The notes under the pieces: generated by a model
Seen by the model: the letters and a program-made list of their open reading frames with translations, nothing else
What the model was told of the DNA's origin: nothing
The model's database searches: none
DNA from: Fluviirhizobium alvei
GTDB taxonomy: Bacteria; Pseudomonadota; Alphaproteobacteria; Rhizobiales; Rhizobiaceae
Length of the DNA stretch: 64,000 nt
Reading direction: 5' to 3'
NCBI RefSeq assembly: GCF_030551875.1
Contig: NZ_JAUOZU010000007.1
Span: 186,001 to 250,000, forward strand
Position numbers and translations under genes: made by a program
Shown here: positions 40,068 to 63,336 of the stretch, one piece after another
Layout: every line of letters begins with the position of its first letter
Numbering within the stretch: position 1 is the stretch's first letter

Positions 40068-43000
40068 ATGCGCGCACTCATCCGGTCATCCCTTGTGCTT
40101 CTCGCTCTTGCTGCACCTTTTGCCGCCACATCGCATGCGGCGGATGGAAAACGCACGATCGTAACCGTCAAGGATGCCGACTATTTCGGCTTCGACCTAA
40201 GAACCGTCCAGAACGTGACGCTGGACGAGTGCAAGGCCGCCTGCATCGACGACAACGCCTGCAAGGCCTTCACCTTCAACACCAAGGCCGGCTGGTGCTT
40301 CCTGAAATCCGACTTCAAGACGATGAACCCGTTCGCGGGCGCCGTCGCCGGCAAGGTCGTCGTCCAGGCCGCATCCGCTCCCGATATCGGCGCACCGCCG
40401 ACGCTCGCTTTCCTGACCGAGCAGCAGGAAGTGGATGCCACGACCTTCCGCCAGAATTTGGCCGTCTCGCTTGGCTACGAAACCCTCGGCATTGACGGCA
40501 TCAAGGCCGCCGCCAAGGAAGAGTTGAACCGGGGCGCCATCGATCGCGCCATCGCAGCCTATCAGTCAGGCCTGGTATCCTCTCCCGACAATCTCGATCT
40601 CTGGACCGGTCTCGTAGAGGCCGCCAACCGCGTCAGCGACAATTACACGATCAACAATCAGGGAATGTCTGCCGCCATCAACGCCTATCGGCTGACGCGC
40701 ACGGCTCCCGATCGCGCCCGCGTCCTGGCATTGATGGCCAAGTCGATGGAAAACAACCAGTATTACCGGGCCGGCATCAACGCCTACAAGGCCAGCCTCA
40801 AGCTGGTGGATAACGGCACGGTCCGCGCCGCCCTTGACGATCTTCGCCTTCGCCAGGGTTTCCGGGTGGTCGGCAATACGCTCGACAACGACAATTCCAA
40901 TCCGCGTGCCTGCGTGCAGTTCTCCGAACAGCTCGTCAAGGCCGGGGTCGATTACGCCTCCTACGTTCTGGTCGACGGGCAGGCCCCGAAAGCCATCGAA
41001 GCCAAGGAGGCCGAACTCTGCGTCGAGGGCCTCCAGCACGGCCAGCGCTACAAGATCTCGCTACGCGAAGGACTTCCGTCCGCCGTCGATGAACCGCTCA
41101 GCGCCCAGGTCGATCTGTCGATCTATGTCCGCGACCGCACCCCGAGCGTGCGCTTTACCGGCGACAGTTTCGTGCTGCCTTCGACTGCGCGTCGCGGTAT
41201 CCCGATCGTTTCGATCAATTCTTCGAGCGCAAAGCTGAAACTCTACCGGATCGGCGACCGCAACATCGCCTCGGTGCTCGCCAACTCGCAGTTCCTGACC
41301 CAGGTCGACGGCTATCGCGCCAGCCAGATCGAAGACGAACAGGGCCAGTTGGTCTGGCAGGGTTCGATCGATGTCGGCAACGAACTCAACAAGGAAGTCA
41401 TCACCTCCTTCCCGGTCGATGAGGCCCTGCCCGAGCGCAAGCCCGGCGTCTATGTGCTGACTGCGGTCTCCTCCGAGGAACAGGGCAACTACTGGGATTC
41501 CAAGGCTACGCAGTGGTTCGTGGTGTCCGATCTCGGCATTTCCACCTATGCCGGCACGGATGGGCTGAACGTCTTCGTCCGCTCACTCGCCACCGCAAAG
41601 CCGCTCGCCAATGTGACCCTGCAGCTTCTGGCCAAGAACAACGAAATCTTGGGCACCGCAACGACCGATGCCAACGGTCGCGCCACCTTCGATGCCGGCC
41701 TGATGCGCGGGACCGCCGCCATGACGCCAGCCGTCATCACGGCCGCCAATGCCGACAAGGACTATGTGTTCCTCGACATGACCCGCGCCGGCTTCGATCT
41801 CTCCGATCGCGGCGTGACGGGTCGTCCGGCACCGGGTGCCGTCGATGTCCTGACCTGGACCGAACGCGGCATCTATCGTCCCGGCGAAACGGTGCATGTC
41901 TCGGCCCTTGCCCGCGACATTGCCGGCCAGGCGATCGAGAAACTGCCGCTGACCTTCATCTTCTCGCGCCCGGATGGCGTGGAAGAACGCCGCATGGTGT
42001 CTGATGGCGGCAGCTTGGGCGGCCATACGCTCGACCTGCCGATCCAGTCGAACGCCATGCGCGGCACCTGGACCATGCGGGTCCATACCGACCCCAACCA
42101 GACGGCGATCGCCGAAAAGACCTTCATGGTCGACGACTTCGTGCCGGATCGCATCGAATTCGATCTCGCCACGACCTCCAAGGATATTGCAAGCACTGAA
42201 CCCGCCAAGGTGACCGTTGACGGACGCTTCCTCTATGGCGCCCCGGCGGCCGGCCTCGATATCGAAGGCGATGTGGTCGTCAAGCCAACCCGCACCCGCG
42301 AAAGCATTCCCGGCTATTTCTTCGGCCTTGCCGATGAGGAAGCCCAGGAAGAAACCCGTGCGGCCATTGCCGGCCTCGAACCGCTCGATGAGGAAGGCAA
42401 GGCTGCCTTCGATGTCGACCTTCCCGAATTGCCCTCGACCACCCAGCTCCTCGATGCCCGCATCGTGGTTCGCATGAGCGAGGCCGGTGGCCGGGCCGTC
42501 GAGCGCGAAATTGCACTGCCGGTTCGCCCTGAAGGTCCGATGATCGGCATCAAACCGGAATTCGCCGACGCCCTGCCGGAAAACTCGATCGCCAACTTCC
42601 ATGTTGCCGGTTTCGACAGCGGCGGCAGCCGCGTTGCGATGAAGGATCTGGTCTGGAAGCTCCTGAGCGTCGAACGTCAGTATCAATGGTATCGCGACGG
42701 TTCGTCCTGGCGTTATGAACCCATCACCACCACCAAGCAGGTGGCGACGGGCACGATCAGCCCGACCGCAGACGGCGCCAAGATTTCTGCACCGGTGACC
42801 TGGGGTCGGTACCGCCTCGAAGTGGAAACGATGGCGCCGGATGGCCCCACCACCAGCGTCGAATTCGATGCCGGCTGGTATGTCGAAGCCACCTCCACGG
42901 AAACGCCGGATGGGCTGGAAATCGCGCTCGACAAGCCGTCCTATCATGTCGGCGATACGATGCGCCTCAATATCTCGCCGCGTTTTGCCGGTGAGGCCCT

Positions 43001-45518: not shown

Positions 45519-45522
45519 GGCA

Positions 45523-47613
45523 ATGACACGGATGGCGCGGACACGGCTGTTTCTGATCTTCGCAGGCATGCAGGTGGCCTTTGCCGCCGGCATTACCTGG
45601 GGCATCGAGGCTGCCGACCGCGCCTTCCCGCCGCCGCTTGAAAAGGCGTCGGTCTATTCCAGGGAAGTGGTGGATGCCAACGGCCGCTTGCTACGGGCCT
45701 TCACCACGCCGGATGGCAAGTGGCGCCTGAAAGTCGATGGCGCGCTCGTCGACCCACAATATAAACGCATGCTGATTGCCTATGAGGACCGGCGCTTTGC
45801 CGAACACAGGGGCATCGATCTTCTGGCACTCGGTCGCGCAGCCTACCAGTTCACGACCAATCTCCGCATTCTTTCCGGCGGCTCGACCTTGTCGATGCAG
45901 GTGGCGCGACTGCTCGAACCGCGTCAGGACCGCTCGATTGGCTCCAAACTCCTGCAAATGGCACGGGCTGCCCAGATCGAACGGCGCCTGAGCAAGGACG
46001 AGATCCTCGATCTCTATCTCAACCTCGCCCCCTATGGCGGCAATCTCGAAGGCGTGCGTGCCGCAAGCCTCGCCTATTTCGGCAAGGAACCAACCAAGCT
46101 CACAGTCGCGCAATCGGCCCTGCTCGTCGCCCTGCCGCAATTGCCGGAACGCCGCCGCCCGGATCGTTATCACAAGGCGGCGACGGAAGCCCGCGCCCGC
46201 GTGCTCAATCGCATGGCCGTTTCCGCCGTGATCGGCGAAGGCGAGGTCGAGCGCGCCGGGCTGGTGGCGGTTCCGAACAAGCGCCTCGCGCTTCCATCCT
46301 ATGCCGCCCACCTGGCGCAGATGGCCGTGAGCCGCGACAAGCAGAAGCAGATCCATCCGACCACCCTGCGCCGCGATGTGCAGGCGGCGCTGGAAGCCGT
46401 GGCGTCGCAATCGGCGCGCAAGCTCGGCCCCAAGATTTCCGTCGCGATCGTGATGGCAGATGCCAGCACCGGCGAAATCATCGGCGCCACGGGATCGGCG
46501 GACTATTTCGATTCCAGCCGGGCCGGGTTCATCGACATGACGCGGTCGCTGCGCTCGCCGGGCTCGACGCTCAAGCCCTTCATCTACGGTCTTGGCTTCG
46601 AAGAGGGCATGATTGCGCAGCAGACGATCATCGAGGATCGTCCGGCGGATTTCTACGGCTATCGGCCGCGCAACTTCGATATGTCCTATCAGGGCGATGT
46701 CACCATTCGCCAGGCTTTGCAGATGAGCCTCAACGTTCCGGCGGTCAAACTGCTGGAATCGGTCGGACCGTCACGACTGATGGTGCGGTTCCGCCGCGCC
46801 GCGGTTAAACCCGTTCTGCCGGCGAACGAGACGCCGGGACTGGCCATCGCGCTCGGCGGTGTCGGCATCACGCTCAAGGATCTCGTGCAGCTCTATGCCG
46901 CCCTAGCCAATGGCGGCGCGCCGGTGAAGCTCGGCGACGGGGTGCATGAACAGCCCGAAGCCATTGCCGGCGAACCACTGCTCACACCGGCCGCCGCCTG
47001 GCAGGTCAACGATATCCTGTCCGGCATGCGCCCGCCACAGGGCGCCGTCGATCGCAACATCGCCTACAAGACGGGCACCTCCTACGGCTACCGCGATGCC
47101 TGGTCGGTGGGATACGACGGGCGCCATGTCATCGGCGTCTGGGTCGGCCGAGCCGACAATGCGGCCGTTCCCGGCATCAGCGGCTATCAGTCGGCAGCGC
47201 CGATCCTGTTCGAAGCCTTCGTCAAGTCGGGCGTCGCGATCGAATCGATGCCGGCGGCTCCCCCGGGAGCCCTGCGGCTCACGGAAGCCGAATTGCCGGC
47301 GAGCCTCAAGCGTTTTGCCATGACGCGCACGGGCCTCATATCCTTCAGTGCACGCGAACCGGCGCCACAGATCGTCTATCCGCCCGAGGGTGCCGAAGTG
47401 GAACTCGGGCTGAACAGCGGCGAGACATTGCCTCTCGCCCTGAAACTTCAAGGAGGCCGCCCGCCCTTCCGCTGGCTCGCCAATGGCAAGGCGATGCCGG
47501 ATGCGATCCGCAAGCGCAATTTTCAATGGATACCGGATGGCGCCGGCTATTCGACACTGACGGTCATCGATGCGATCGGCCGGGCGGCCACCGTCAAGGT
47601 CTATCTGAAATAG
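45523..47613 (+). CDS. pbpC: Penicillin-binding protein 1C
   Basis: The 696-residue bifunctional peptidoglycan synthase has an N-terminal membrane anchor (about 7-25). The glycosyltransferase 51 domain follows (about 50-220), with catalytic Glu in AYEDRRFAEHRGID and GGSTLSMQVARLL. The transpeptidase domain (about 285-560) shows Ser348-x-x-Lys351 in SPGSTLKPF, the SLN motif in QMSLNVPAV and KTGTSYG. The C-terminal PBP1C-specific beta domain (about 610-696) is also present. It is translated from the same message as the alpha-2-macroglobulin gene, four bases apart. PBP1C is non-essential and is thought to repair cell-wall damage. Confidence 0.94.
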   Translation: MTRMARTRLFLIFAGMQVAFAAGITWGIEAADRAFPPPLEKASVYSREVVDANGRLLRAFTTPDGKWRLKVDGALVDPQYKRMLIAYEDRRFAEHRGIDLLALGRAAYQFTTNLRILSGGSTLSMQVARLLEPRQDRSIGSKLLQMARAAQIERRLSKDEILDLYLNLAPYGGNLEGVRAASLAYFGKEPTKLTVAQSALLVALPQLPERRRPDRYHKAATEARARVLNRMAVSAVIGEGEVERAGLVAVPNKRLALPSYAAHLAQMAVSRDKQKQIHPTTLRRDVQAALEAVASQSARKLGPKISVAIVMADASTGEIIGATGSADYFDSSRAGFIDMTRSLRSPGSTLKPFIYGLGFEEGMIAQQTIIEDRPADFYGYRPRNFDMSYQGDVTIRQALQMSLNVPAVKLLESVGPSRLMVRFRRAAVKPVLPANETPGLAIALGGVGITLKDLVQLYAALANGGAPVKLGDGVHEQPEAIAGEPLLTPAAAWQVNDILSGMRPPQGAVDRNIAYKTGTSYGYRDAWSVGYDGRHVIGVWVGRADNAAVPGISGYQSAAPILFEAFVKSGVAIESMPAAPPGALRLTEAELPASLKRFAMTRTGLISFSAREPAPQIVYPPEGAEVELGLNSGETLPLALKLQGGRPPFRWLANGKAMPDAIRKRNFQWIPDGAGYSTLTVIDAIGRAATVKVYLK

Positions 47614-47634: not shown

Positions 47635-48360
47635 CTATTGAAGGCGATAGCCGAATTTCTCGATTTCCCAGGCATTCAGCCTTTCGACCATGGCGTTGAC
47701 TTCGGGATGGCTGGCGAAGATCTCAGCAGTCGTAACCGACCGGTCACGCGCAGCCCCCTTGGCGTTGATGCCGCTGAACGTCTCCCAGAGCCCGGACAGC
47801 GCCGGACGTTCCGCTTCGAGCGCCAGCATGTCCTCCTGGAAATGCTCGTAGCGCAAATAGCGGTCGATGACATCCTGACCGCCGACGCGATAGTTGGGGT
47901 AATTGATTTCGAGATATTTCTGATTGTTCTTGAAATAGGTCGTGAAGTCCTTGAGATCCGGCTTCTCGCTGCCCTTGTTGCGCCAGAAGAACAGAGACAC
48001 CGCCCGATCCCACGGATTTCTAACGAGAGAAATGCGCTGATAATCGCGCCAGACTTCGGCCGGCAGGCGCGATTTCGCCCGCGCGGCCGGAATGTGATTG
48101 TAGAATTTCAGCGGCAATTCGTAGCCGAACAATCTGGCCGGCCGTTGCGGATCATTGCTGAACCGCTTGAGGAACTCGAACTGGAAATTGCGAGGCCCCG
48201 CAAATCCATGTGAGCGGCGGATCGCCTCATCCTTGCGCGAGATCGGGGTTACGATGTCATCCGGCCGATTGACGAAGCGCGACAGTGCGATCTCGAACGA
48301 GGTGCCAGCGACCTTGCGCGGCTTGAGGAAGATGAACTTGTGCTCGTGGGACAGAATCAT
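47635..48360 (-). CDS. Sulfotransferase family 2-like protein
   Basis: The 241-residue cytoplasmic protein has a PAPS-binding 5'-phosphosulfate loop in FLKPRKVAGTSFEIAL and a 3'-phosphate motif in RISLVRNPWDRAVSLFFW, both typical of carbohydrate sulfotransferases. The chosen start (MILSHEHKFIFLKPRK) places the first strand at the N-terminus; a longer frame to 48420 adds 20 residues without likeness. The ribosome site is weak. It lies near sugar-nucleotide and glycosyltransferase genes, so it may sulfate a surface glycan, as an inference. It converges with pbpC, 21 bases between stops. Confidence 0.82.
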   Translation of the reverse strand: MILSHEHKFIFLKPRKVAGTSFEIALSRFVNRPDDIVTPISRKDEAIRRSHGFAGPRNFQFEFLKRFSNDPQRPARLFGYELPLKFYNHIPAARAKSRLPAEVWRDYQRISLVRNPWDRAVSLFFWRNKGSEKPDLKDFTTYFKNNQKYLEINYPNYRVGGQDVIDRYLRYEHFQEDMLALEAERPALSGLWETFSGINAKGAARDRSVTTAEIFASHPEVNAMVERLNAWEIEKFGYRLQ

Positions 48361-48469
48361 GGGCTCGGACTGCTGTGGCAAGGATCGTTTCGGCCGGCAA
48401 CCTATGCCAAGCGGCATCAAATAGGAAGGTGGCCCCGGCGATCAATTCGCTGCCACGTAACAGCCAATC

Positions 48470-49840
48470 TCACCCCGCCGCCTGGTGCTCTGGCGCGACG
48501 AGAAAATCCGCAAACCGGTCGGCGGGAACCGGTCGCCCGAACAGATAGCCCTGGAATTCGGTGCAGCCGAGTGCGAGTAGATGGTCGCGGTGCTGCACCG
48601 TCTCTACGCCTTCCGCCAGAACCGACAGATTGAGGTCCCGCCCCATCTGCACGATCCCTTTCACGATAACTGCACCCCGCGCCTCCGACAGCATGTCGCG
48701 CACGAAACTCTGGTCGATCTTCACCTGCGTGAAGGGCATGCGCTTGAGATATTGCAGCGAGGAATAGCCGGTTCCGAAATCGTCAAGCGCCAGTGTCAGC
48801 CCCAGGGCCTTGAGTTCGTTCATCTTGCCGATCACATCCTCGATATCATCCACGACCACGCTTTCCGTAAGTTCGAGTTTGATAAGGCGCGGGTCGACAC
48901 CATGGCGGGCGATGATGTCCCTTAATTCCGCGACGAAACCGGCATCAAGAAACTGCTGGGGACTGACATTGACCGACACGGTCAATGACCGCGTCCGTTC
49001 GTCCGACTGCCATTGGGCAAGCTGCAAACAGGCTGCCTCAAACACCCAGCGCCCGATTGCAGGCATCATGTTCAACTGCTCGGCAACCGAAATGAATTCG
49101 CCGGGAGGGACCATCCCGCGTGTGGGATGCTTCCACCGCAACAGGGCTTCGGCACCCTTGACCTGCCCTATCCGGTCAACCTGTGGCTGGTAGTAGAGTT
49201 CAAACTGACCACCCGTCAGCGCGGCGATCAGTTGGCGCCCCATGTCTGACCGCGCCGCAAATTCCGCCTGCATGATAAGGACGCTGATACACATGATGGC
49301 GATCGCCACGAAACTGTGCACCCATGAACCGAGCATGCGCACATGATCCGGCAAGGGCGTGGCATAGGATGTGCCGAAGGTGGTGCTGGAAAAGACGATG
49401 AAGGATGCAAGGTAGAACAGGACGACTGTGATCGTCATGCGAGGATGGCTGTCACGGAAGGTGACGTAAGCCAGAAAGGCCAGAGCAAGAAAATAGAGAT
49501 GCGTCACCCGTGGCGCTGCCGCAGACGGAATATCGAAATTCAGACAGATTTCGAAGAGAACGAGCGTCAAGGCTGCGTGGACGATGGTGGCCGCCGTGAT
49601 GAAGTTTCCGCTGCGGATCCGCCACCAGAGAACAAGCCCTGCCAGCATGTAGAAGAGGTTGAGAAGGACGAGCAAAGGCTCGCCCTCGAACGTCATCCAC
49701 ACAGCCCAAACTGCACCGAAAAGAACGAGCGCGATACTGGCAGCCTGATAGGCGAGCGATAAACGTTTCTCATGGGCCCGGTCATACAAGAACCGGGGCG
49801 CTTCCTTGCTTTTGAAAGTATTCGCCTTCGATTTCTTCAA
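48470..49840 (-). CDS. Membrane-bound EAL-domain c-di-GMP phosphodiesterase
   Basis: The product has about 456 residues. Five or six hydrophobic helices (about 25-200) form a MASE-like sensor, followed by an EAL domain (about 205-450). Catalytic motifs are complete: EALLRWKHP, LELTES, LALDDFGTGYSS, VKIDQSFV and LAEGVET. No GGDEF domain is present, so it should only degrade c-di-GMP. The start is unclear: TTG 49840 follows AGGAGG by four bases, while TTG 49858 gives six more residues. It sits beside surface-polysaccharide genes, where c-di-GMP often controls matrix and adhesins. Confidence 0.88.
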   Translation of the reverse strand: MKKSKANTFKSKEAPRFLYDRAHEKRLSLAYQAASIALVLFGAVWAVWMTFEGEPLLVLLNLFYMLAGLVLWWRIRSGNFITAATIVHAALTLVLFEICLNFDIPSAAAPRVTHLYFLALAFLAYVTFRDSHPRMTITVVLFYLASFIVFSSTTFGTSYATPLPDHVRMLGSWVHSFVAIAIMCISVLIMQAEFAARSDMGRQLIAALTGGQFELYYQPQVDRIGQVKGAEALLRWKHPTRGMVPPGEFISVAEQLNMMPAIGRWVFEAACLQLAQWQSDERTRSLTVSVNVSPQQFLDAGFVAELRDIIARHGVDPRLIKLELTESVVVDDIEDVIGKMNELKALGLTLALDDFGTGYSSLQYLKRMPFTQVKIDQSFVRDMLSEARGAVIVKGIVQMGRDLNLSVLAEGVETVQHRDHLLALGCTEFQGYLFGRPVPADRFADFLVAPEHQAAG

Positions 49841-49909
49841 CGTCCCTCCTGCAATCAAGCAGAAGTTAGGTTGAAGGAAAAACAGAATTCAATCAAGCTA
49901 ATAAATTAC

Positions 49910-49970: not shown

Positions 49971-52443
<2,473 letters not shown>

Positions 52444-52472: not shown

Positions 52473-54518
52473 TCAGCCGGTCGGGCCGGACCAGAGACGC
52501 CTGTCGGCAGCGATGGGCGAATGCGCGTCCCATTCCGCAAGCCGGCTTCTGTAGATCGCGTGATACTCGTCGCGGTTCCAGAACTCGGTGCGATCCTTGA
52601 TGATTTCCGCCCCGATCTCGTAATAGATGTCGAGATTGGAAAGATCCGGAACGGGCGTCTCGCCGCGTTCGGCCTCGCCCTGCATCTGCCAGTAGATTTC
52701 CTCCAGACGACGCGCCAGACCCGGAATGTCGCGGAGAACGCTGGTCTCGCGTTTGTCCGCCAGGCTCTGCCGGATCCGGGCAAGACTGTCGCGATCACGC
52801 GCAAAACCGATTGCCTTGCGGACGAAATCCTCCGGGCCAGTGCAGATCAGTTCCGGCACGCCGGCGGCCAGCACGATGCTGCTGCAGAAGCGCGAAGCGA
52901 AACTGTTGCCGGGCACCGTCAGCACCGGAAGACCCATCGTCAGCGCGTCGCCTGCAGTCGAATGCGCACCATAGGGGAACGTGTCGAGGAACAGGTCGGC
53001 AAGCGCGATGCGGGCCAGATGGTGCGGATTTGGCGCCTTGGGGGCAAAAATCAGCCGCTCGGGAGCGACACCCAGCGCAGCAGCCGACTGACGCAGGCGC
53101 TGTTCGACATCGGCACCGCCCGCAAGCAGCCAGAGAACGCTTTGCGGCGTCGCTGCAAGAATGGCCATCCAGCGCGCAAAGCAGCTGGCATTGATCTTCT
53201 GCATGCCGTTGAAGCAGGCATAGACGAACACATTGTCCGGCAGGCCGGCTTCCGCGCGCGTCGGCTTCTGCGCAATCACCCTCTTGCGGTCAACCGGCTG
53301 GTTGCAGGCAATCCGGTAGAGCTTTTCCGAATAGTAGATCTCGTTTTCCGGCGGCACGATCTGGCCGTCGGCAATCATGTACTGATGGTGCGGGCTGCCC
53401 ATAGACCCCGGATAGCCACAGAAGTTCACGATGACCGGAGCCGGTCGGTAGGCGAAAATCTTCGTACGGGCATGCTTTGTATAGCCGTTGACGTCGATCA
53501 GAATGTCGACTGCATCGCCAGCGATCGTGAGAGCGGCAGCCGCATCGTCGAGATTGCTGATATCCCGCCAGCAATCGACGGCGGCACGGATACGGTCCTG
53601 CGTCGCATCATTGACGCGCGGTTCGCCGCAGTAATAGGCATAGATCTCGACCTTGGCCTTGTCATGCAGTTCGAAGACTTCGCTCAGGGCAAAACCGACG
53701 GCATGATCGCGCAGATCCGAGGACACATAGCCGACCCGCAACCGCTGTCCGGTTCCCGTCTTGAGCTTCGCAGCCGGTCGGGGATGGGCCGAAAGGTCCG
53801 GTCGTCCGACGAGCTGGCGGTTATAGCGGTAGGCCTTGGCGAGCTGGAACATCGGATCGTCGGCATAGCAGCCAAGCGTCAGCGGCGACATCGCATCGAT
53901 CAGCTGGCGGGCGCTGACATGATCTGAAGTCACGAGCGCGGGCCATTTGCACTGGCGCTGACGGATCGAGGTCCAATGCTGGCCGGCTTCCGGCTTGTCC
54001 GGCCGCAGTTCGATCGCCTGCCAGAGAATGTTCTCGGCCTCTTCGAGCAGATTGGCATTTTCAAGCACACGCCCCAGATGTTGCAACGTCATCAGACGAT
54101 GGCTCAACCGGTCCGGGGTGACATCAGCGGTCTGGTCGAGATACACGCGCCAGGCGGAAACGGCCTGATTGATCAGGCTGCAGTCTTCAAGCGCGCGACC
54201 GAGATTGATGTGGGCCTGACCGAACTTCGGTTCGGCCCTGAGGCAGGCGCGCAGCGCATGAATGGCGCCGGTCACATCACCAAGCTGCCTGAGGGTTACC
54301 GAATAGTTAAAGTAAACGACATGGACGAGCGGATTGGTTTCGTTGAAGGCAATCCAGGCCTTGTAGATTTCCGCGGCCTGCGCCCTGTGCCCGGCCGCGT
54401 TCAGGCTCTCGGCGACCTGGAACAATTCTCCCAGCGGTAGCGTCTGGTTGCGGGCGCGATCAATGATTCCGACCAGCGGTGAAACGGTCTCGGCAGCGGA
54501 TTGGGGTGATGTGGCCAT
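52473..54518 (-). CDS. TPR protein with SPINDLY/O-GlcNAc-transferase (GT41) type glycosyltransferase domain
   Basis: The 681-residue cytoplasmic protein has TPR-like helices at residues about 30-200 (AAGHRAQAAEIYKAWIAF, AHINLGRALEDCSLINQAVS). The catalytic part (about 255-640) resembles OGT/SPINDLY: RLRVGYVSSDLRDHAVGF, VDILIDVNGYTKHARTKIFAYRPAPV, then FCGYPGSMGSPHHQYMIAD, VFVYACFNGMQKINASCF, and LFLDTFPYGAHSTAGDALTMGLPVLT. Such enzymes add a sugar to Ser/Thr or related residues of proteins. A following gene on the same strand encodes another glycosyltransferase. It diverges from the giant Ser/Thr-rich repeat protein, which makes that protein a candidate acceptor (inference). Confidence 0.87.
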   Translation of the reverse strand: MATSPQSAAETVSPLVGIIDRARNQTLPLGELFQVAESLNAAGHRAQAAEIYKAWIAFNETNPLVHVVYFNYSVTLRQLGDVTGAIHALRACLRAEPKFGQAHINLGRALEDCSLINQAVSAWRVYLDQTADVTPDRLSHRLMTLQHLGRVLENANLLEEAENILWQAIELRPDKPEAGQHWTSIRQRQCKWPALVTSDHVSARQLIDAMSPLTLGCYADDPMFQLAKAYRYNRQLVGRPDLSAHPRPAAKLKTGTGQRLRVGYVSSDLRDHAVGFALSEVFELHDKAKVEIYAYYCGEPRVNDATQDRIRAAVDCWRDISNLDDAAAALTIAGDAVDILIDVNGYTKHARTKIFAYRPAPVIVNFCGYPGSMGSPHHQYMIADGQIVPPENEIYYSEKLYRIACNQPVDRKRVIAQKPTRAEAGLPDNVFVYACFNGMQKINASCFARWMAILAATPQSVLWLLAGGADVEQRLRQSAAALGVAPERLIFAPKAPNPHHLARIALADLFLDTFPYGAHSTAGDALTMGLPVLTVPGNSFASRFCSSIVLAAGVPELICTGPEDFVRKAIGFARDRDSLARIRQSLADKRETSVLRDIPGLARRLEEIYWQMQGEAERGETPVPDLSNLDIYYEIGAEIIKDRTEFWNRDEYHAIYRSRLAEWDAHSPIAADRRLWSGPTG

Positions 54519-55286
54519 TTATATTCCAGGGTCGAGCGGCGCTTGGCCGGCACTTCGGCAGATTGGGCGATGGCCACATGTAAAGCCGCTAGCTTGCTTT
54601 GGGCTTGCCAGAGCAAACAGCACCCGATCGGTGAACAGAACCGGTCGATCGCCGCACAAGTACTCCGGCGCCTATTCAATTACAGGCTCGGACAAGTTCG
54701 CGCGCCTATTGCTTTCTTCAATGAAAGCTTTGCGTCATCGCAATTGGAGGAAGGAAACAGTTCCCAAAGACGGTCAGACGTCTGAACCTTGGTGATTAAC
54801 AATTGTTGCAAAGATCAATCGCCGCAACATTTCGAAAATGCACCGATTGACTGTCCGTGGAGCGATACCAAACAAATCGTGGAAAGCCACTGCAAATCAG
54901 GGGTGGTGCTGTTAACTCAATATTAAAACGCACTGCCTAAACATTATGGCGAGATAGCTGTATCTGAAGGCTGCAGATGATTGCGCCTGATACGGTTTGG
55001 AATGCAAGGTCTCCCTCGCGAGACATGTTGACATACTGGTGTGGGAAGCAGGGTAACCCTGCATGCATGAGGCCACTCCCGCACCCAGGCTCTCGAGAGC
55101 CATGTCCCTCAGAACACTGCCACATCTGAAGACGCGTCCAGCGATAGAGACAGACGGTCTCGGACGGCAGCAAAACCCAAGTCAGTCATGGGCGACGTTT
55201 TGTCGTGGCCATGCGGCACCGGGTTATGGCTCCGGCAGTGCGAGAGGAAAGGCGATAGTAACCCGTTAACATCAAAGGCCGTGTCA
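54519..55286. other. Long intergenic control region between the OGT-like gene and the giant repeat gene
   Basis: These 768 bases hold no convincing gene; short frames inside lack ribosome sites and family likeness. AT-rich stretches around 54780-54960 differ from the flanking GC-rich coding DNA. Within it are TTGACA (55028-55033), a hairpin GCAGGG-TAA-CCCTGC (55048-55062) and the perfect palindrome GGCTCTCGAGAGCC (55088-55101). Its length suggests multiple regulatory inputs to the giant gene. Confidence 0.5.
55088..55101. promoter_or_regulatory. Perfect 14-bp palindrome upstream of the giant repeat gene
   Basis: GGCTCTCGAGAGCC is a fully symmetric site 186 bases before the giant gene's start codon, 26 bases after a small perfect hairpin (55048-55062). 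It could bind a dimeric regulator; none is recognised. Confidence 0.35.
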
Positions 55287-58200
55287 ATGACTTCGATCGT
55301 TTCCTCTCTGTCTGTGACGCAGATCAGATCACTCTCCACCACAATGATCGCCAACTTGACCACGGAAGATGTAGCGGCGCTGTCCACTACTCAGGTCAAG
55401 GCCCTGTCGGCGGCCCAGATTGCGGCCATCCAGACAGAAGATTTCGCGGTCATGTCGACCGACCAGATCGGCGCGATCGCATCCACTTCGATTTCCGGCT
55501 TGAGCCTCGATCAGCTCGCCGTTCTCGAAACCGCAAAGATGAGCAGCCTGGGCACCACCCAGATTGCGGCCATGTCCGCGACCCAGATCGGCGGACTGAG
55601 CACCGACCAGATTGATGTCCTCGACTCCCGCCAGATCAGCGTCCTGAGCTCGGCCCAGCTTGCAGCTCTCGCCAGCGATGATATCGCGACCTTCTCGAAC
55701 GACGAAATCGCCGCAATCAGCGCCAAGTCGCTCGCCGGCCTCTCGACCGGTTCGATCGCGGGCCTTTCGACGGATCAGGCCACGGCCCTCACCTCCACCC
55801 AGGTTGCAGCCCTTCGCGCGGCCCAGGTCGCAGCGCTTTCGACCGACCAGATCAGCGTACTCAGCTCGACCCAGATCGGTGCTCTCACTTCGGCACAGCT
55901 GACTGCCATAAGCACCACGAACATTGCTGCCCTTTCGACCGACCAGATCACGTCGCTCAGCTCGAAGGTGATGAGCGCTCTGACGACGGCACAGATCGCT
56001 GCTCTTTCCACCGATCAGGTTGCAGTCCTGAATTCCACCCAGATCGCAGCCCTGAGCGCCACTCAGATCGGCGCGCTTGCGACCGAAGATCTCGCCACCT
56101 TCAGCAACGATGAAGTGGCCGCCATCAACGTCAAGGCTCTGACGGGTCTCTCGAGCACGGCGCTCGGCGCACTGTCCACCGACCAGACTGCAGCCCTCAC
56201 CTCGGCACAGATCGTTGCCCTGAAGGCCACGCAGATTGCCGGCCTCTCCACCGATCAGGTCAGCGTGTTGAGCTCGACCCAGCTCGCAGCGCTGTCCTCT
56301 TCGCAGCTTGCAGCTTTCAGCACCACCAACATCGCTGCCCTTTCGACCGACCAGATCACATCGCTGAGCTCCAAGGCGATTGTTGCACTGTCTTCGGCCC
56401 AGATCAGCGCGCTGTCGACCGATCAGGTCGAAACCCTGTCTTCGACCCAGATCGCCGCCCTCAGCGCAACTCAGATTGCCGCCCTTGCTTCGGAAGATCT
56501 CAGCACCTTCTCTGATGCGGAAGTGGCCGCCATCAGCGTCAAGTCGCTCTCCGGCCTTTCGAGCACCACGCTGGCGACCCTCTCCACCAGCCAGACAGCA
56601 GCTCTGACCACCGCCCAGATCGCAGCCCTCAAGGCCACGCAGATCGCAGCCCTGTCGACCGACCAGATCGGCGTCCTCGGCTCGACCCAGATCGGCGCAC
56701 TCTCCTCGACCCAGATTGCGGCTCTCAGCACGGATACGGTCGCCGCCCTTTCGACCTCGCAGATCACCTATCTGAGCTCCAAGGTCATGGCTGGCCTGAC
56801 AACGGCCCAGATCACGGCGATGAGCACCGACCAGATCGAAATGCTCTCGAGCACCCAGATCGCGGCACTGAGCGCGTCCCAGATCGCGGCCCTTGCCTCT
56901 GAAGACATGGCCGCCTTCCTCGATACCGAAATCGCCGCAATCAACGTCAAGGCGCTCTCCAGCCTCTCGACCGACAGCATTGCCGCACTTTCGACCGACC
57001 AGACCGCAGCGCTGACCTCGACCCAGTTCGCAGCCCTGCGTGCCGCGCAGATCAATGCACTGTCGACCGACCAGCTCGCAGTCGTCTCCTCGACCCAGAT
57101 CGGCGCCTTGACCTCCGCACAGCTGAGCGCACTCAGCACGACCACCGTCGCTTCGCTGTCGACCGACCAGATCGCCGCCCTCAGCACCAAGGTGCTCGGC
57201 GCCCTCTCGAGCGCCCAGATCAACGCCCTGTCGACCGACCAGGCCGCGGCCCTGAGCTCGACGCAGGTCGCTGCACTCAGCGCAACCCAGATCGCAGCGC
57301 TGGCTACGGAGGATTTCGCCACCTTCTCGACTGAGGATGTCGCTGCCATCAGCGCCAAGTCGATCGCTTCGCTCTCGTCGGCCAACATTGCCGTCCTGTC
57401 GACCGATCAGGCTGCCGCACTGTCCAGCACCCAGATCGCTGCCATGAAGGCCACGCAGCTCGCGGCCCTCGGCACTGACCAGGTTGCAGTCCTGAGCTCG
57501 ACCCAGATCGGCGCTCTCACCTCCGCGCAGATCGCGGCTCTCAGCACAGATGCGATTGCCGCCCTGTCGACGGATCAGGTCACGGCTCTGAGCACCAAGG
57601 TGCTCGGCGCGCTGACGACCGCCCAGGTTGGCGCTCTCTCCACCGACCAAGTCGATGTTCTGAATTCGTCGCAGATCGCAGCTCTCGGCGCCACCCAGAT
57701 CGGTGCGCTTCAGACCGAAGATATCGCGACCTTCTCGAACAGCGAAATTGCTGCAATCAGCATCAAGACGCTCACGAGCCTCTCGACGGCCAACATCGCA
57801 GCCCTTTCGACCGATCAGGCCGCATCGCTGACGACGGCACAGGTCGCAGCGCTGAAGTCGACGCAGATTGCGGCCATGACCTCCGATCAGCTCGTGGTTC
57901 TGAACTCGACCCAGGTCGGCGCCCTGTCCTCCAGCCAGCTGGCAGCACTTTCGACGGACAACATCTCCAAGCTCACGACCGAGCAGGTCATGAACCTGAG
58001 CACCAAGGCGGTGGTCGCCCTGTCGACGGCGCAGATCAGCGCTATGACCACCGACCAGATCGACTCGCTTGGCTCGCTCCACATCGCAGCCCTGGGTGCG
58101 ACCCAGATCGGCGCGCTGCAGACCGAAGATCTCGTCGGCCTCCAGTCCTCCGATATCACCGCGATCAGCACCAAGGCGATCAGCGGCATGAGCACCGCAG

Positions 58201-61166
58201 CTGTCGCGGCCCTGTCGACCGACCAGGCGTCCGTCCTGACGACCGCTCAGCTGGTCGCCCTGAAGGCAACGCAGGTTGCAGCCCTCACCTCCGACCAGAT
58301 CGGCGTTCTGAGCTCCACCCAGGTGGGCGCTCTGACATCGTCGCAGCTGGCAGCCCTATCGACCTCGAGCATCGCAGCGCTCTCGACAGACCAGATCGCA
58401 TCGCTCGGAACCAAGGCCCTCGCCGGCCTGACATCCGCCCAGATCGATGCCCTGTCCTCTGATCAGGCACAGGCCCTGAGCGCAACCCAGGTTGCCGCCC
58501 TCAGCGCCACCCAGATCGCAGCCCTGTCGACCGAAGACATTGCAACCTTCTCGACCACCGAGATTGCTGCGATCAACGTCAAGGTCGTCGGCTCGCTGTC
58601 GACCTCAAGCATCGCCGCTCTCTCGACCGATCAGGCTGCAGCCCTCTCCAGCACCCAGATCGCGGCGCTGAAGGGTACGCAGGTTGCGGCACTGACCACC
58701 GATCAGATCGGTGTGCTGACCTCCACGCAGATTGGCGCCCTCTCTTCGAGCCAGTTCGCTTCGCTCTCCACCGACAGCATGGCGGCCCTCTCGACCGACC
58801 AGATCACGTCGCTCAGCACCAAAGTGATGGGCGCCCTGACATCTGGCCAGATCGCAGCCCTGAGCACGGCCCAGGCCGGCGCCCTGAGCTCCGCCCAGGT
58901 TGGCGCGATGACCGCCACCCAGATCGCGGCACTTGCCACCGATGACATTGCGACCTTCTCCACCGATGATGTCGCTGCCATCAACGTCAAGGCACTTGGC
59001 TCGCTCTCGACGGATGTGATTGCCGCACTCTCCACCGATCAGGCAGTCGCCCTCTCGACCACCCAGGTCGCAGCCTTGAAGTCGACCCAGATCGGCGCAA
59101 TGTCGACGGACCAGATCGCGGTTCTGAGCTCGACCCAGGTCGCGGTTCTCAGCTCCTCGCAGCTCTCGGCCCTTTCGACCGGCAGCATCGCGGCTCTGTC
59201 GACCGACCAGGTCTCGGTGCTGAACTCGAAGTCTCTGGCAGCCCTGACGACCGCCCAGATCGGCGCTCTGTCCACCGATCAGGTTGACGTCCTGTCCACC
59301 GCCCAGATCGGCGCCCTCAGCGCGACCCAGCTCGCAGCCCTGGCGACCGAGGATATGGCCGGCTTTGACGCCACCGACATCGCGGCGATCAACGATAAGG
59401 CTCTTGCCGGTCTTGCGACCGACAATATCGCAGTGCTCTCGACCACACAGGCCGCCGCACTGACGACCAGCCAGGTCGCCTCGCTCCGCGCTGCCCAGGT
59501 TGCTGCTCTCTCGACCGATCAGATCAGCGTCCTCAGCACCGGCCAGATCGCGGCCCTGAGCTCGGCACAGTTGTCTTCGATGAGCACGGATGGGATCTCT
59601 GCCCTGTCCAGCGATCAGGTCACGGCGCTTAGCTCCAAGGCTGTGGTGGCCCTGAGCTCCGCCCAGATCGCGGCCCTCAGCACCACACAGGCCGCGGCCC
59701 TGAGCACGACGCAGGTCAATGCCCTGAGTTCGACGCAGCTGGCAGCCTTCGCGACCGAAGACATCGCCACCTTCTCGACCGACGACATTGCAGCCCTGAA
59801 CGTGAAGGCCCTGCCGGGACTGTCCACCGACAGCCTCGCAGCCCTCTCGACCGACCAGGTGGTGGCGCTCTCCTCCACCCAGATCGCGACGCTCAAGGCA
59901 ACCCAGATCGCGGCTCTGTCCACCGATCAGGTCGCTGTCCTCAGCAGCACCCAGCTTGGCGCCCTCAGCTCCACGCAGCTTGCATCGCTGTCGACCGCCA
60001 ATATCGCGGCTCTGTCCACCGATCAGGTCTCGGCGCTCAGCACCAAGATCCTCGGCGGCCTGTCCACGGCTCAGATCGATGCCATGGGTTCTGATCTCAT
60101 CGCGGCCCTCAGCTCCAGTCAGGTTGGCGCTCTGACCGCAACGCAGCTCGGCGCCCTTCAGACCGATGACATCGCCCTCTTCGCCAACGAAGATGTCGCA
60201 GCCATCAGCATCACGGCGCTTTCGGGCCTGTCGACCAACAACATCGCAGCCCTGTCGACGGCACAGGCAGCGGCCCTGACCACGACACAGGTCGCGGCTC
60301 TGAAGTTCGCCCAGATCGGCGCCATGTCCTCCGATCAGGTCAGCGTTCTGAGCACCGATCAGGTCAAGGCGATCACCTCGACCCAGATCTGGGCCCTGTC
60401 GACCGACAGTGTCGCGGCAATGTCGACCGACCAGGTGGGTGCTCTCACCTCCAAGGCCGTGTCGATGCTGACGACAGCCCAGATCACCGCGATGAGCTCG
60501 ACGCAACTCGAGGCCCTGAGCTCCACCCAGGTGGCCGCTCTGACCTCCAGCCAGCTCGGCGCGCTCAGCACGGAAGACATCGCAGCCTTCGCTGACGAGG
60601 ATATCGCAGCGATCAGCCTGACGGCGCTCGGCGGTCTCTCCACCGATAGTGTCGCAGTCCTGTCGACCTCGCAGACTGCAGCACTCTCGACCGGCCAGAT
60701 CGTCGGCCTGAAGACCACCCAGATCGCGGCCCTGACCACCGATCAGGTCGGCATTCTGGCCTCGACGCAGATCGCAGCGCTGACCTCCTCGCAGATCGCA
60801 GCGCTGACGACCGAAAGCATCGCGGCCCTGACGACCGACCAGATCACCTCGTTGAGCTCGAAGTCGCTCTCGGCCATGACAACGGCCCAGATCGAAGCAA
60901 TGAGTTCGACACAGATCGAGGCCCTGTCTTCGACGCAGGTTGGTGGACTGAGCTCCGCAGCGATCGCAGCACTGGCATCGGAAGATCTCGCGACCTTCTC
61001 GACCGACGACATCGCAGCCATCAGCACCAGCGCTGTGGCGGGTCTGTCGACCGACGATATCGCAGGCCTCTCGAGCACCCAGCTGCAGGCGATCACCGCA
61101 GAGCAGATCCAGGCCATGGATAGCGACCAGGTCAACGCCGTCATCACCGCCTACCAGGCAATCTAA
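55287..61166 (+). CDS. Giant octapeptide-repeat protein (1959 residues), function unknown
   Basis: From residue 4 to 1955 the protein is 244 consecutive eight-residue units without one insertion or deletion; consensus near Q-[IV]-A-A-L-S-[ST]-[DT]. Units group into a 17-octad (136-residue) super-period that starts at units like DIATFSNDEIAAISAK and repeats 13 times from residue 132, with a 60-residue partial copy at the end (finishing VNAVITAYQAI). Ser/Thr are frequent in each unit; Cys is absent, Trp and Pro almost absent, and Lys or Arg occurs at fixed octads. No signal peptide or membrane segment is seen. The start ATG 55287 follows AAAGG by eight bases. It is likely a filamentous or solenoid surface/structural protein, but I recognise no functional domain. 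A terminator follows. Confidence 0.9.
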   Translation: MTSIVSSLSVTQIRSLSTTMIANLTTEDVAALSTTQVKALSAAQIAAIQTEDFAVMSTDQIGAIASTSISGLSLDQLAVLETAKMSSLGTTQIAAMSATQIGGLSTDQIDVLDSRQISVLSSAQLAALASDDIATFSNDEIAAISAKSLAGLSTGSIAGLSTDQATALTSTQVAALRAAQVAALSTDQISVLSSTQIGALTSAQLTAISTTNIAALSTDQITSLSSKVMSALTTAQIAALSTDQVAVLNSTQIAALSATQIGALATEDLATFSNDEVAAINVKALTGLSSTALGALSTDQTAALTSAQIVALKATQIAGLSTDQVSVLSSTQLAALSSSQLAAFSTTNIAALSTDQITSLSSKAIVALSSAQISALSTDQVETLSSTQIAALSATQIAALASEDLSTFSDAEVAAISVKSLSGLSSTTLATLSTSQTAALTTAQIAALKATQIAALSTDQIGVLGSTQIGALSSTQIAALSTDTVAALSTSQITYLSSKVMAGLTTAQITAMSTDQIEMLSSTQIAALSASQIAALASEDMAAFLDTEIAAINVKALSSLSTDSIAALSTDQTAALTSTQFAALRAAQINALSTDQLAVVSSTQIGALTSAQLSALSTTTVASLSTDQIAALSTKVLGALSSAQINALSTDQAAALSSTQVAALSATQIAALATEDFATFSTEDVAAISAKSIASLSSANIAVLSTDQAAALSSTQIAAMKATQLAALGTDQVAVLSSTQIGALTSAQIAALSTDAIAALSTDQVTALSTKVLGALTTAQVGALSTDQVDVLNSSQIAALGATQIGALQTEDIATFSNSEIAAISIKTLTSLSTANIAALSTDQAASLTTAQVAALKSTQIAAMTSDQLVVLNSTQVGALSSSQLAALSTDNISKLTTEQVMNLSTKAVVALSTAQISAMTTDQIDSLGSLHIAALGATQIGALQTEDLVGLQSSDITAISTKAISGMSTAAVAALSTDQASVLTTAQLVALKATQVAALTSDQIGVLSSTQVGALTSSQLAALSTSSIAALSTDQIASLGTKALAGLTSAQIDALSSDQAQALSATQVAALSATQIAALSTEDIATFSTTEIAAINVKVVGSLSTSSIAALSTDQAAALSSTQIAALKGTQVAALTTDQIGVLTSTQIGALSSSQFASLSTDSMAALSTDQITSLSTKVMGALTSGQIAALSTAQAGALSSAQVGAMTATQIAALATDDIATFSTDDVAAINVKALGSLSTDVIAALSTDQAVALSTTQVAALKSTQIGAMSTDQIAVLSSTQVAVLSSSQLSALSTGSIAALSTDQVSVLNSKSLAALTTAQIGALSTDQVDVLSTAQIGALSATQLAALATEDMAGFDATDIAAINDKALAGLATDNIAVLSTTQAAALTTSQVASLRAAQVAALSTDQISVLSTGQIAALSSAQLSSMSTDGISALSSDQVTALSSKAVVALSSAQIAALSTTQAAALSTTQVNALSSTQLAAFATEDIATFSTDDIAALNVKALPGLSTDSLAALSTDQVVALSSTQIATLKATQIAALSTDQVAVLSSTQLGALSSTQLASLSTANIAALSTDQVSALSTKILGGLSTAQIDAMGSDLIAALSSSQVGALTATQLGALQTDDIALFANEDVAAISITALSGLSTNNIAALSTAQAAALTTTQVAALKFAQIGAMSSDQVSVLSTDQVKAITSTQIWALSTDSVAAMSTDQVGALTSKAVSMLTTAQITAMSSTQLEALSSTQVAALTSSQLGALSTEDIAAFADEDIAAISLTALGGLSTDSVAVLSTSQTAALSTGQIVGLKTTQIAALTTDQVGILASTQIAALTSSQIAALTTESIAALTTDQITSLSSKSLSAMTTAQIEAMSSTQIEALSSTQVGGLSSAAIAALASEDLATFSTDDIAAISTSAVAGLSTDDIAGLSSTQLQAITAEQIQAMDSDQVNAVITAYQAI
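55680..60985 (+). repeat. Tandem 408-bp coding repeats (13 copies) of 24-bp sub-repeats
   Basis: At DNA level the giant gene contains 13 diverged in-frame copies of 408 bases (17 units of 24 bases), beginning at codon 132. Copies differ in many positions, so they are old and held in length by selection rather than being a fresh amplification. The regular short repeats are coding and not a CRISPR array. Confidence 0.85.
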
Positions 61167-61241: not shown

Positions 61242-61536
61242 GCTTTTGGACATGATGAGGTTGAGTGCCTATCAGGTTGAGGGAAAGTGTGAGGACTGCG
61301 CTATGCAGCCGGCGATCCGAAGAAGTGCCCGGAGCTGGCGAAGTCGCACCAACCTCGCGCATCGTGGCGGTGGATGAAGGGATCAGCGGGCGAGAAAGAG
61401 GTAAGAAGGCTGTTTGCCGCGAGGTGCTGGAGTTCTGTAAACCTAAAGAAGTGGAAAAAGAATGTCTGCGATGGGACGCAATTTGAAGTCGATGTATCAA
61501 TGAAGGTCCTATGTTTAGCCTCTATTGGAATCCAAG
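61242..61536. other. Compositional junction before the DUF4365-like gene
   Basis: About 295 bases without a supported gene. Base composition shifts from the GC-rich, codon-biased giant gene to AT-richer sequence. Short open frames here (for example 61265-61486) have no family likeness and may be decayed sequence. It is the probable left edge of an acquired segment reaching toward tRNA-Phe. Confidence 0.4.
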
Positions 61537-63336
61537 TTGCCCAAACGCTCCAGAACACATCAGCTCGAAGATAAATCGATCAATGAGTTTAAGAGGCTCC
61601 TTCCAGAACAGTGGGTATGCAGGGAAAAAGGTCGCGACTACGGTGTCGACTTAGAGGTTGAGATTTTTGGGGATGACGGTCAAGCAACCGGGTATTTCTT
61701 CAATGTTCAACTAAAGGCAACAGATGACGCAGGCAGATCCGACAAAGTTTCTATCAAAACAGATAGATTACACTATTTAGCGTCGCTGAACGTTCCTGCA
61801 TTAATCGCCAGATATTGCGATCCAATCGGTGCTTGGAAATGGATTTGGAACCAAGAGGCGCTGGCCCAGGTGATGCGGCCTGATACCCAAACCGTTACCC
61901 TCGCGTTATCAAACGATTGGACGCAAGAGACTCCTTCTAGAATTGAAAATCACCTCATTGCTATTAGAAGACTGCAATCTGCAAGACAAAATGAAGACAT
62001 ATTTATAGAGCTTCAAAATCACACGGGAAAGTTCAAGTACTATTCTGACAGCGAGAAGATACTTCGCAGAGTCTCATACGCACTCCCCTTCATCAATCTC
62101 AACAAACCAGGCCTAAACGACATCAAGTTAAGCATTCAGCTCTGGGATAAATTCATTCGAATCGAGTTGGCCGACGTAGGAAATCTGGATATCGGCATTA
62201 ATAATTATAGCCATGAAGAAATATCAGCCACAATTCTGTATGGGCTTCCTGCCGTTCTGCTTAGAATAAATCTTCATTCACACGCCAAGTCCGCTGCGAT
62301 TTTTTGCCTCAGAGAATATCTAACTTCCCCACAGAAAGAGTTAGCAACAGAAGCCTGCCGCGCGCTCGCGAGCGATCCCCTTGAGGCCACAAACCTAGCA
62401 ATCTTGAACAATATTCATCTAGAACAAGACTATAATTACAGCAACTTTGTGATCTCACTGCTGAATAACGGGAGGAATGACAAACGCTATTCACGAGCCC
62501 TAGAAAAGCTAAATCGGGAGGCCGCTAAAGCTGCAACGAGTCAGGGCCGAAATCCATCGGCCATATTTTATTCTCTAGGAAATAGTCAGGCATCTCTCGG
62601 ATTGTACGGTAAGGCAGTTCGCTCATTTAACCGCGCTCGTAAATTGGAGCCGAGTTACCTATCCAGATCTTATTTTTTGAGTGAGCTTGGAGGATCGTTG
62701 TTTTTCTCTAGAAAATATAGATGCTCCGTTACCGCATACCGAGCCGCATTGTCGCTAGAACAAACGGAAAAACTTCAGTTTTGCTTAGCAGATGCCCAAC
62801 TTTACGCGGGATCGTTTGAGGAGGCCGCTACTGCATTTGAGGACCTTGAAAAGGTTGTAGATGAAAATCTTGCCGCAGAAGTCAGATTAAAGGCTCAACT
62901 TTCAAAGTGGTTTCTCCACAATAGCATCCAAGCAAAGCCACATCAGGCTGAAAAACTCCATCACATAATGGTCCAAGCAATTGAGCGAGGAGCATTGATT
63001 GACGCCCATTTTGCGCTTCTAGCTCTTGCTCTTTTGACACCACAAAACCCCAAGCCTTGGGCAGCATTTCTCCAAATTTGCTTCCTTCTGTCAGACCGCA
63101 AGACGATGTTTGATGCCATGGTAACAGCACACGCGGAATGTGGGGCAGATGCCTACTCAATTTGCCGACAAAACCTTTTGGAAATGGGCGAACTCGCTGA
63201 AGCTACTCCCGAGATAGATGAAATTGACAGTCTATTCGCAGAGGCACGTAGAATTGATCAATCACAAGCACCCATACCTATCACATTTCGATTAATAGGC
63301 GAGAATGGGCCTGAAGTCGAATTTACGAAGAAATAA
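61537..63336 (+). CDS. DUF4365-domain (PD-(D/E)xK nuclease-like) protein with TPR region
   Basis: The product has about 599 residues. The N-terminal 150 residues match the DUF4365 pattern: PKRSRTHQLEDKSINEFKRL, then GRDYGVDLEVEIF and FFNVQLKAT. The Asp of GVDLE with QLK form a PD-(D/E)xK-like nuclease core with Gln in place of Glu. The C-terminal half (about 320-560) has TPR-like helices (AIFYSLGNSQASLGLYGKAV, AFEDLEKVVDENLAAEVRLK). The gene is clearly AT-richer than its neighbours with different codon use, a sign of transfer. Start TTG 61537 fits the family N-terminus; TTG 61525 is possible. Such fusions often belong to phage defence, but no partner gene is here, so function is inferred. Confidence 0.8.
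   Translation: MPKRSRTHQLEDKSINEFKRLLPEQWVCREKGRDYGVDLEVEIFGDDGQATGYFFNVQLKATDDAGRSDKVSIKTDRLHYLASLNVPALIARYCDPIGAWKWIWNQEALAQVMRPDTQTVTLALSNDWTQETPSRIENHLIAIRRLQSARQNEDIFIELQNHTGKFKYYSDSEKILRRVSYALPFINLNKPGLNDIKLSIQLWDKFIRIELADVGNLDIGINNYSHEEISATILYGLPAVLLRINLHSHAKSAAIFCLREYLTSPQKELATEACRALASDPLEATNLAILNNIHLEQDYNYSNFVISLLNNGRNDKRYSRALEKLNREAAKAATSQGRNPSAIFYSLGNSQASLGLYGKAVRSFNRARKLEPSYLSRSYFLSELGGSLFFSRKYRCSVTAYRAALSLEQTEKLQFCLADAQLYAGSFEEAATAFEDLEKVVDENLAAEVRLKAQLSKWFLHNSIQAKPHQAEKLHHIMVQAIERGALIDAHFALLALALLTPQNPKPWAAFLQICFLLSDRKTMFDAMVTAHAECGADAYSICRQNLLEMGELAEATPEIDEIDSLFAEARRIDQSQAPIPITFRLIGENGPEVEFTKK

Follow-up and report, generated by a model that had tools for sequence, protein, structure and literature searches.

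A giant octapeptide-repeat protein of Fluviirhizobium alvei and the conserved GT41 glycosyltransferase gene beside it

The window analyzed here, 64 kb of Fluviirhizobium alvei DNA (64,000 nucleotides), contains a gene whose product consists almost entirely of one eight-residue motif, repeated from end to end. What does such a protein look like, what could it be for, and which of its neighbors belong with it? The features within the gene are listed below.

55287–61166, plus strand: giant octad-repeat protein, 1959 residues, 244 octads, PF20080; all-helical AlphaFold2 model for residues 1–275
55287–55328, plus strand: N-terminus of 14 residues conserved in relatives (M-T-S-I-like start and first octad)
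55296–61007, plus strand: 14 super-repeat units of 408 bp (17 octads, 136 residues), supported by identity at lag 136; the first unit is less regular
61008–61163, plus strand: C-terminal octads with an end motif like DQV.AVI.AYQ, found in several relatives when C-termini were compared by eye

The reading frame translates without an internal stop. A register-tracking script follows the octads from residue 4 through 244 full units and a four-residue tail with zero slips. Position 5 is Leu, Ile, Met, Phe, or Val in all 244 octads, and position 2 is Ile, Leu, Val, Met, or Phe in 228 (240 with Ala included). Ser or Thr occupies position 6 in 188 octads and position 7 in 198, with 232 of the 244 carrying one of them somewhere in positions 6 to 8, and Gln is found at position 1 in 153. 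Altogether, Ser and Thr account for 572 of the 1959 residues. Identity at lag 8 is 0.377. In 1000 residue shuffles it averages 0.120 (SD 0.007, maximum 0.145), which places the octad periodicity far above chance. The original prediction, made from the letters alone, had described 244 octads running without indels from residue 4, hydrophobic at positions 2 and 5, with Ser/Thr at 6–7 and frequent Gln at 1. The script and the residue counts uphold both statements, and its view that such uniform length reflects structural selection is judged right; the octad regularity is under long-term selection. Perfect register is common in the family and not universal, with zero slips in 33 of the 57 repeat reading frames tested (out of 66, after dropping those shorter than 700 residues or with unread residues), many of which are closely related.

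Above the octad lies a second periodicity. At lags 136 and 272, identity is 0.607 and 0.59; for all remaining lags divisible by 8, up to 296, it stays between 0.35 and 0.45. The 14 super-repeat units share on average 59% of their residues and 65% of their nucleotides, and at identical residues their codons agree in 54% of cases versus 49% expected from codon usage alone. Recent slippage or amplification was rejected on this near-expectation codon agreement; together with the protein identity, it indicates that the units are old. A longer reading frame could start at 55188. We place the start codon at 55287 because the N-terminus is conserved in relatives; an alignment of 16 sequences is nearly free of gaps over its first 275 residues. 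The C-terminal motif is a possible export or capping signal, judging from its sequence.

The repeat itself belongs to a catalogued family. Pfam PF20080 ("ALTTAQ repeat") matches at 1205.6 bits in 75 stretches along the protein (curated cut-off 26.4 bits). Its octad sequence is the same, and the Pfam model is a 38-residue window that is silent on function, super-repeat, and partner genes. In addition, PDB entry 9zem ("HeliScrew4," 120 residues) gives a gapless 108-residue sequence match (E 4.4e-17); its octads are richer in Pro, and its name suggests a helical screw. The original prediction knew of no characterized protein of this design and proposed a new repeat, to be abandoned on a profile match to a characterized one. 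The PF20080 and 9zem matches correct the first point, and as regards the repeat itself the second falls with the PF20080 match. The family is therefore known, and functionally undescribed as far as we found. No papers on ALTTAQ or HeliScrew were found in the literature searched, which excludes most subscription journals and bioRxiv, and a broader search yielded none on PF20080-type octad proteins among the matches listed. NCBIfam returns zero matches to the protein at E 0.01. The secondary Pfam matches (CAAP1, GspA_C39-like, Bflower_2, and others) are probably spurious repeat matches, since PF20080 scores far higher, and the calcium-binding nonapeptide (RTX) family is absent among the seven Pfam families found at E 0.01. 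A search of 50,697 phage records for a phage origin gave no match at E 1e-5. Caulobacter vibrioides, used as a control, matches PF20080. Far outside Proteobacteria, a hypothetical protein on a Spiroplasma endosymbiont plasmid (CP117533.1, 14056–14673) shows 31.6% identity over 73% of an octad-repeat query.

The AlphaFold2 model of residues 1–275, built on a 12-sequence alignment, has a pLDDT of 96.0 and a pTM of 0.87 and spans the N-terminal seventh of the protein. It consists of 34 helices of four to six residues, one per octad, with no strand, and nearly all of the helices begin directly past octad position 6. Capping-box pairs (Ser, Thr, Asn, or Asp at position 6 followed by Gln, Glu, or Asp at position 1) occur at 148 of the 243 octad junctions. 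Of the two structures originally put forward, helix capping by an S/T-x-x-Q pattern is borne out by these helix starts and junction pairs, and the 16-residue β-solenoid finds no strand to support it in the modeled segment. We accordingly rejected β-solenoid and ice-nucleation readings. The names "ICE nucleation protein" and "heme utilization," which some Cereibacter records bear, were probably transferred through low-complexity similarity. Foldseek identifies mesothelin (7ued_M, E 3.7e-05) as the best solved structure, with a TM-score of only 0.32 where about 0.5 or more was the criterion, which indicates no close match to an ARM/HEAT or mesothelin-type fold; 9zem is absent among the best 50 of 322 Foldseek matches. 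The fold is predicted with high confidence, and we have little doubt that the protein is a helical octad solenoid.

The octads also carry information on how such a solenoid might wind. The mean octad autocorrelation over 59 of the 66 repeat proteins peaks at lags 17, 34, 10, 27, 7, and 24, and its spectrum at 3.40 octads. In each of 30 proteins selected from the 66, one of the five strongest peaks falls at 3.38–3.42 octads, and in 13 this peak is the strongest; all of these periods are harmonics of the super-repeat, lags 7 and 10 generate the rest, periods of 8.5 and 2.43 are strong too, and many of the proteins are related. Relatives with other super-repeats give similar periods. For example, three (L017, L018, L020) have a strongest super-repeat of 24 octads and a period of 3.42, near 24/7, and one (L015) a super-repeat of 27 octads and a period of 3.38, near 27/8. 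The simplest reading of these sequence periods is that the superhelix makes one turn per roughly 3.4 octads (27 residues) and that the super-repeats are near-whole turns. The 244 octads would then describe some 72 turns, with each octad advancing the screw by about 106° (360 × 5/17). If super-repeat lengths are indeed held near whole turns, selection would act on which face of the rod bears which residues, and a common period of 3.4 octads would provide a simple sequence rule for rod pitch. Protein design, too, can profit from an eight-residue helical repeat that stays in register for some 2000 residues.

The neighborhood of the gene is the part that looks new, and the glycosyltransferase cassette in it, unmentioned in the original prediction, is what we consider most informative. 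The adjacent features are as follows.

54519–55286, no strand: intergenic region of 768 bp between divergent genes, from the gene coordinates
52473–54518, minus strand: TPR and GT41 protein, 681 residues, O-GlcNAc-transferase-like (Pfam Glyco_transf_41 and TPR; XcOGT)
51190–52443, minus strand: 417-residue protein with a Methyltransf_FA stretch and a KCDDD motif (Pfam; alignment)
49971–51161, minus strand: UDP-galactopyranose mutase, Glf (PF03275, E 2e-78, 263.2 bits, cut-off 26.3)
47635–48420, minus strand: sulfotransferase-family protein (PF03567, E 3.1e-05), doubtful as a member of the cassette

The GT41, 417-residue, and glf genes lie on the minus strand, divergent from the repeat gene, with intergenic gaps of 28–29 bp. 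The GT41 protein matches Glyco_transf_41 (E 7.8e-71, 239.4 bits, cut-off 25) and carries an N-terminal TPR region (TPR_14, 39.8 bits, cut-off 23.5). Its alignment with XcOGT (2jlb, E 1.8e-77) covers most of the protein, and it also matches entries for the 110-kDa OGT subunit. Glf makes UDP-galactofuranose, and the gene in the cassette is the only GLF match in the 5.2-Mb genome. For the 417-residue protein, Methyltransf_FA is the sole noteworthy Pfam match, the KCDDD motif is invariant, no PDB sequence matches at E 1, and the AlphaFold2 model is poor (pLDDT 49.8). From the acidic motif, judged by eye, and the position of the gene, we would guess at a second glycosyltransferase.

Beyond the cassette, an EAL-domain protein and the sulfotransferase-family protein are encoded 3′ of glf (47635–49858, minus strand). 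Searches of the other loci for the sulfotransferase gave no match at E 1e-8; two sulfotransferases are also encoded near a Cereibacter repeat gene. Farther along are an α-2-macroglobulin (1816 residues) and then penicillin-binding protein 1C (40068–47613, plus strand), a common pairing. Directly 3′ of the giant gene is one for a DUF4365 and TPR protein (61525–63336, plus strand), found among 32 loci searched only in pieces of the same genome (L002, L028).

An ortholog of the GT41 protein is present in 23 of 247 genomes of the family, our own included, at 60% identity and at least 950 bits. The next-best GT41 match scores 334.5 bits at 38%, and all non-orthologs stay at or below 335 bits, giving a clean split. 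With the same sample setting and size, PF20080 is found in all 23 of these genomes versus 17 of the 224 others (Fisher 6e-22, uncorrected for phylogeny). Its overall distribution is patchy (40 of 247), and of the 17 genomes that have it without a GT41 ortholog, 10 have at least 25 matches. A repeat reading frame lies within 1.9 kb of the GT41 gene in 22 of the 23, by our own reading 7 divergent, 12 co-directional, and 3 convergent, which shows that the neighbors have been kept together through rearrangement. Glf, too, is present in 22 of the 23 fetched regions; the 20 kb of G226 lack it. The exception to adjacency is G209 (L071, C17:22001–42000), which has GT41 and Glf, no repeat gene within 20 kb, and its repeats on another contig. 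Several genomes have extra repeat genes distant from any GT41. Tandem pairs of repeat genes occur in L014 and L065, and repeat genes flank the GT41–417-residue–Glf cassette on both sides in L063, L077, L078, and L079.

Glf follows the repeat in a separate sample of 41 relatives, where six genomes have Glf at 74% identity or more and all six have PF20080. Of the seven genomes with PF20080, the remaining one (G034) shows no Glf match at E 1e-60, and PF20080 is absent from a further genome (G036) with a 67% Glf; in G008, contig C174 bears Glf and a repeat fragment. Within the genus, a PF20080 match is missing from six of eight other genomes, so the locus is an accessory one.

The linkage extends well beyond the family. 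The family sampled is probably Rhizobiaceae, since relatives of the repeat that have names come from Rhizobium, Shinella, and their allies. Among 10 loci fetched from named genomes by similarity to the repeat, GT41 lies beside it in four (L009, L010, L013, L014), running into the locus end in L014. No GT41 is seen at the other six (L011, L012, L015, L016, L017, L018), in three of which (L015, L017, L018) the repeat reaches the locus end. The two genes adjoin in a gammaproteobacterial MAG (L013) and in a genome of the same order (L020, 48%). Plasmids carry them as well: 57 of 72,556 plasmid records match the repeat, and 10 of these regions were inspected. Six of them have GT41 directly beside the repeat (L030, L031, L032, L097, L100, L101). 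In two others, Pseudomonas asturiensis L098 and Niveispirillum L102, the latter with two GT41 genes, the distance is no more than about 4.3 kb, and the regions of Shinella (L029) and Thioclava (L099) have no GT41. Overall, Cereibacter, Rhodovastum, Niveispirillum, and Pseudomonas all have a GT41 gene about 4 kb or less from a repeat gene. Across orders and classes, gammaproteobacteria included, the enzymes are only about 35–52% identical, which makes the association an old one. We consider it highly likely that the repeat protein and the GT41 enzyme are functional partners.

Loci without GT41 reveal no stand-in. Fifteen such loci (13 plus two from Ideonella) show no obvious common replacement enzyme, and among 85 neighboring reading frames from the 13 (drawn from 204 listed across all 15), no family has more than three members at E 1e-6. 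Ten further reading frames (L013, L015, L016, L017) include GSCFA, radical SAM, group 1 glycosyltransferase, TOD1/MUCI70 glycosyltransferase-like, and FliD proteins; five have no family match.

The observations on repeat, family, and conserved linkage can be combined into the following model. The protein would be a long, stiff α-helical solenoid in which every octad contributes a single very short helix. Ser/Thr would cap the helix start and Gln, Glu, or Asp complete the capping box, with Ile/Val at position 2 and Leu at position 5 presumably pointing into the core. During or after synthesis, the dedicated cytoplasmic TPR–GT41 enzyme would place sugar on exposed Ser/Thr along the rod. We consider it likely that the repeat protein is the direct GT41 substrate, because the two genes have stayed linked while the loci were rearranged and the sequences diverged, and because Ser/Thr is so frequent at the helix caps. 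The single Glf of the genome lies at this locus, which points to galactofuranose on the product; Glf would supply the donor with which the glycan is probably extended, and the 417-residue protein is a candidate second transferase at the loci that have its gene. The glycosylated rod may then leave the cell without a classical signal peptide, most plausibly by type I secretion, to act as a surface or extracellular glycoprotein such as an adhesin, matrix, or coat. An extracellular location seems reasonably probable to us, and the model as a whole, an exported GT41-glycosylated helical rod, is our best explanation and one that we think slightly more likely than not.

Export is the weakest step. 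Type I secretion is suggested by the lack of an apparent signal peptide, on inspection by eye, and by exporter linkage in other genera. Genes for ABC exporters and HlyD-type proteins are found no farther than about 10 kb from the repeat gene in two strains of Cereibacter sphaeroides (2.4.1 and ATCC 17029), in Niveispirillum, and in Pseudomonas asturiensis, the last with a TolC gene nearby as well. In the 64-kb window itself, no type I exporter lies beside the repeat gene, and none of the eight long ABC matches in the genome (E ≤ 1e-55) is closer to it than about 150 kb. We thus regard type I secretion as a tentative proposal.

Its main rival is a flagellar route. The cassette might glycosylate flagellins, and the rod might leave the cell by flagellar export and serve as an accessory or coat protein. 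The precedent is FlmG of Caulobacter, described as a cytoplasmic O-glycosyltransferase of flagellins (PMC7591256). Flagellin genes are present in the regions fetched around the repeat–GT41–Glf cluster in L031, L068, L073, L074, and L076, and FlgE in L031, FliD in L013, and flagellar export genes in L100, indicating that the partner or export route could be a different one. However, the seven flagellar query proteins match at only seven of the loci searched and nowhere in the window, and three of the flagellin-linked loci (L073, L074, L076) come from one genus (g92), so that independent cases are few. The seven flagellin genes (PF00669) of F. alvei all lie on contigs other than that of the repeat gene, the Pfam scan finds no flagellin N- or C-terminal domain in the repeat protein, and type I exporters stand near the repeat gene in three other genera. 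We regard a flagellar association as unlikely.

Somewhat less probable still is a rod that stays inside the cell, with the repeat protein as a cytoplasmic scaffold and GT41 modifying the scaffold or other proteins for regulation, in the manner of eukaryotic O-GlcNAc transferase. TPR-type OGT enzymes work in the cytoplasm, and the absence of an apparent signal peptide fits as well. ARM/HEAT solenoids are described as mostly protein-binding scaffolds (PMC10035497). Against this stand the exporter linkage in three other genera and the patchy accessory distribution of the repeat in the family. Furthermore, the only Glf copy of the genome sits at the repeat locus, and the galactofuranose donor is known mainly from surface glycans. 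Least convincing is the proposal that the GT41–Glf cassette serves an unrelated surface polysaccharide and has the repeat gene as a neighbor through shared mobility of accessory islands: the patchy distribution, the plasmid copies, the 17 genomes with repeats and no GT41 ortholog, and the G209 cassette without an adjacent repeat would agree with it, but mobility alone would hardly maintain adjacency in 22 of 23 genomes across three orientations and linkage between partners whose GT41 members retain only about 35–52% identity.

Should the exported, glycosylated rod prove correct, its implications would reach beyond one genome. We suggest, with more reserve than for this locus, a widespread and undescribed class of proteobacterial surface glycoproteins: octad α-screw rods of about 1100–4000 residues, glycosylated in the cytoplasm by dedicated GT41 enzymes before export, with galactofuranose where Glf is present, and with super-repeats of 17, 24, and 27 octads held near whole turns (5, 7, and 8 at 3.4 octads per turn). 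A repeat family for which we found a Pfam name and nothing more would turn into a glycoprotein system whose enzyme is defined, with a gene for the sugar donor and with exporter candidates, and a laboratory strain like Cereibacter sphaeroides 2.4.1 would allow it to be tested. Bacterial O-GlcNAc-transferase-like enzymes would gain a large new class of substrates beside flagellin. The glycosylation system around the repeat gene is undescribed as far as our searches show; the one paper on galactofuranose and protein glycosylation among the matches listed concerns flagellin glycosylation in Geobacillus.

Further known systems offer comparisons. Mesothelin, whose structure was solved as 24 short helices wound into a right-handed solenoid (PMC10035497), resembles the octad protein as a short-helix, ARM/HEAT-like solenoid, and differs in being a human surface protein of mixed ARM and HEAT units. 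In the second case, HMW1C is a GT41-type enzyme. Its substrate is its own exported adhesin, HMW1 (PMC3012730), which uses two-partner secretion and is glycosylated on Asn, whereas Ser/Thr is proposed for the repeat protein, for which no two-partner component was found. FlmG-like cytoplasmic O-glycosylation is the mode of action that we propose; the FlmG substrate is flagellin, and here it would be a giant solenoid. Finally, XcOGT is a TPR-type bacterial GT41, and the protein encoded beside the repeat gene is likewise a GT41 with TPR.
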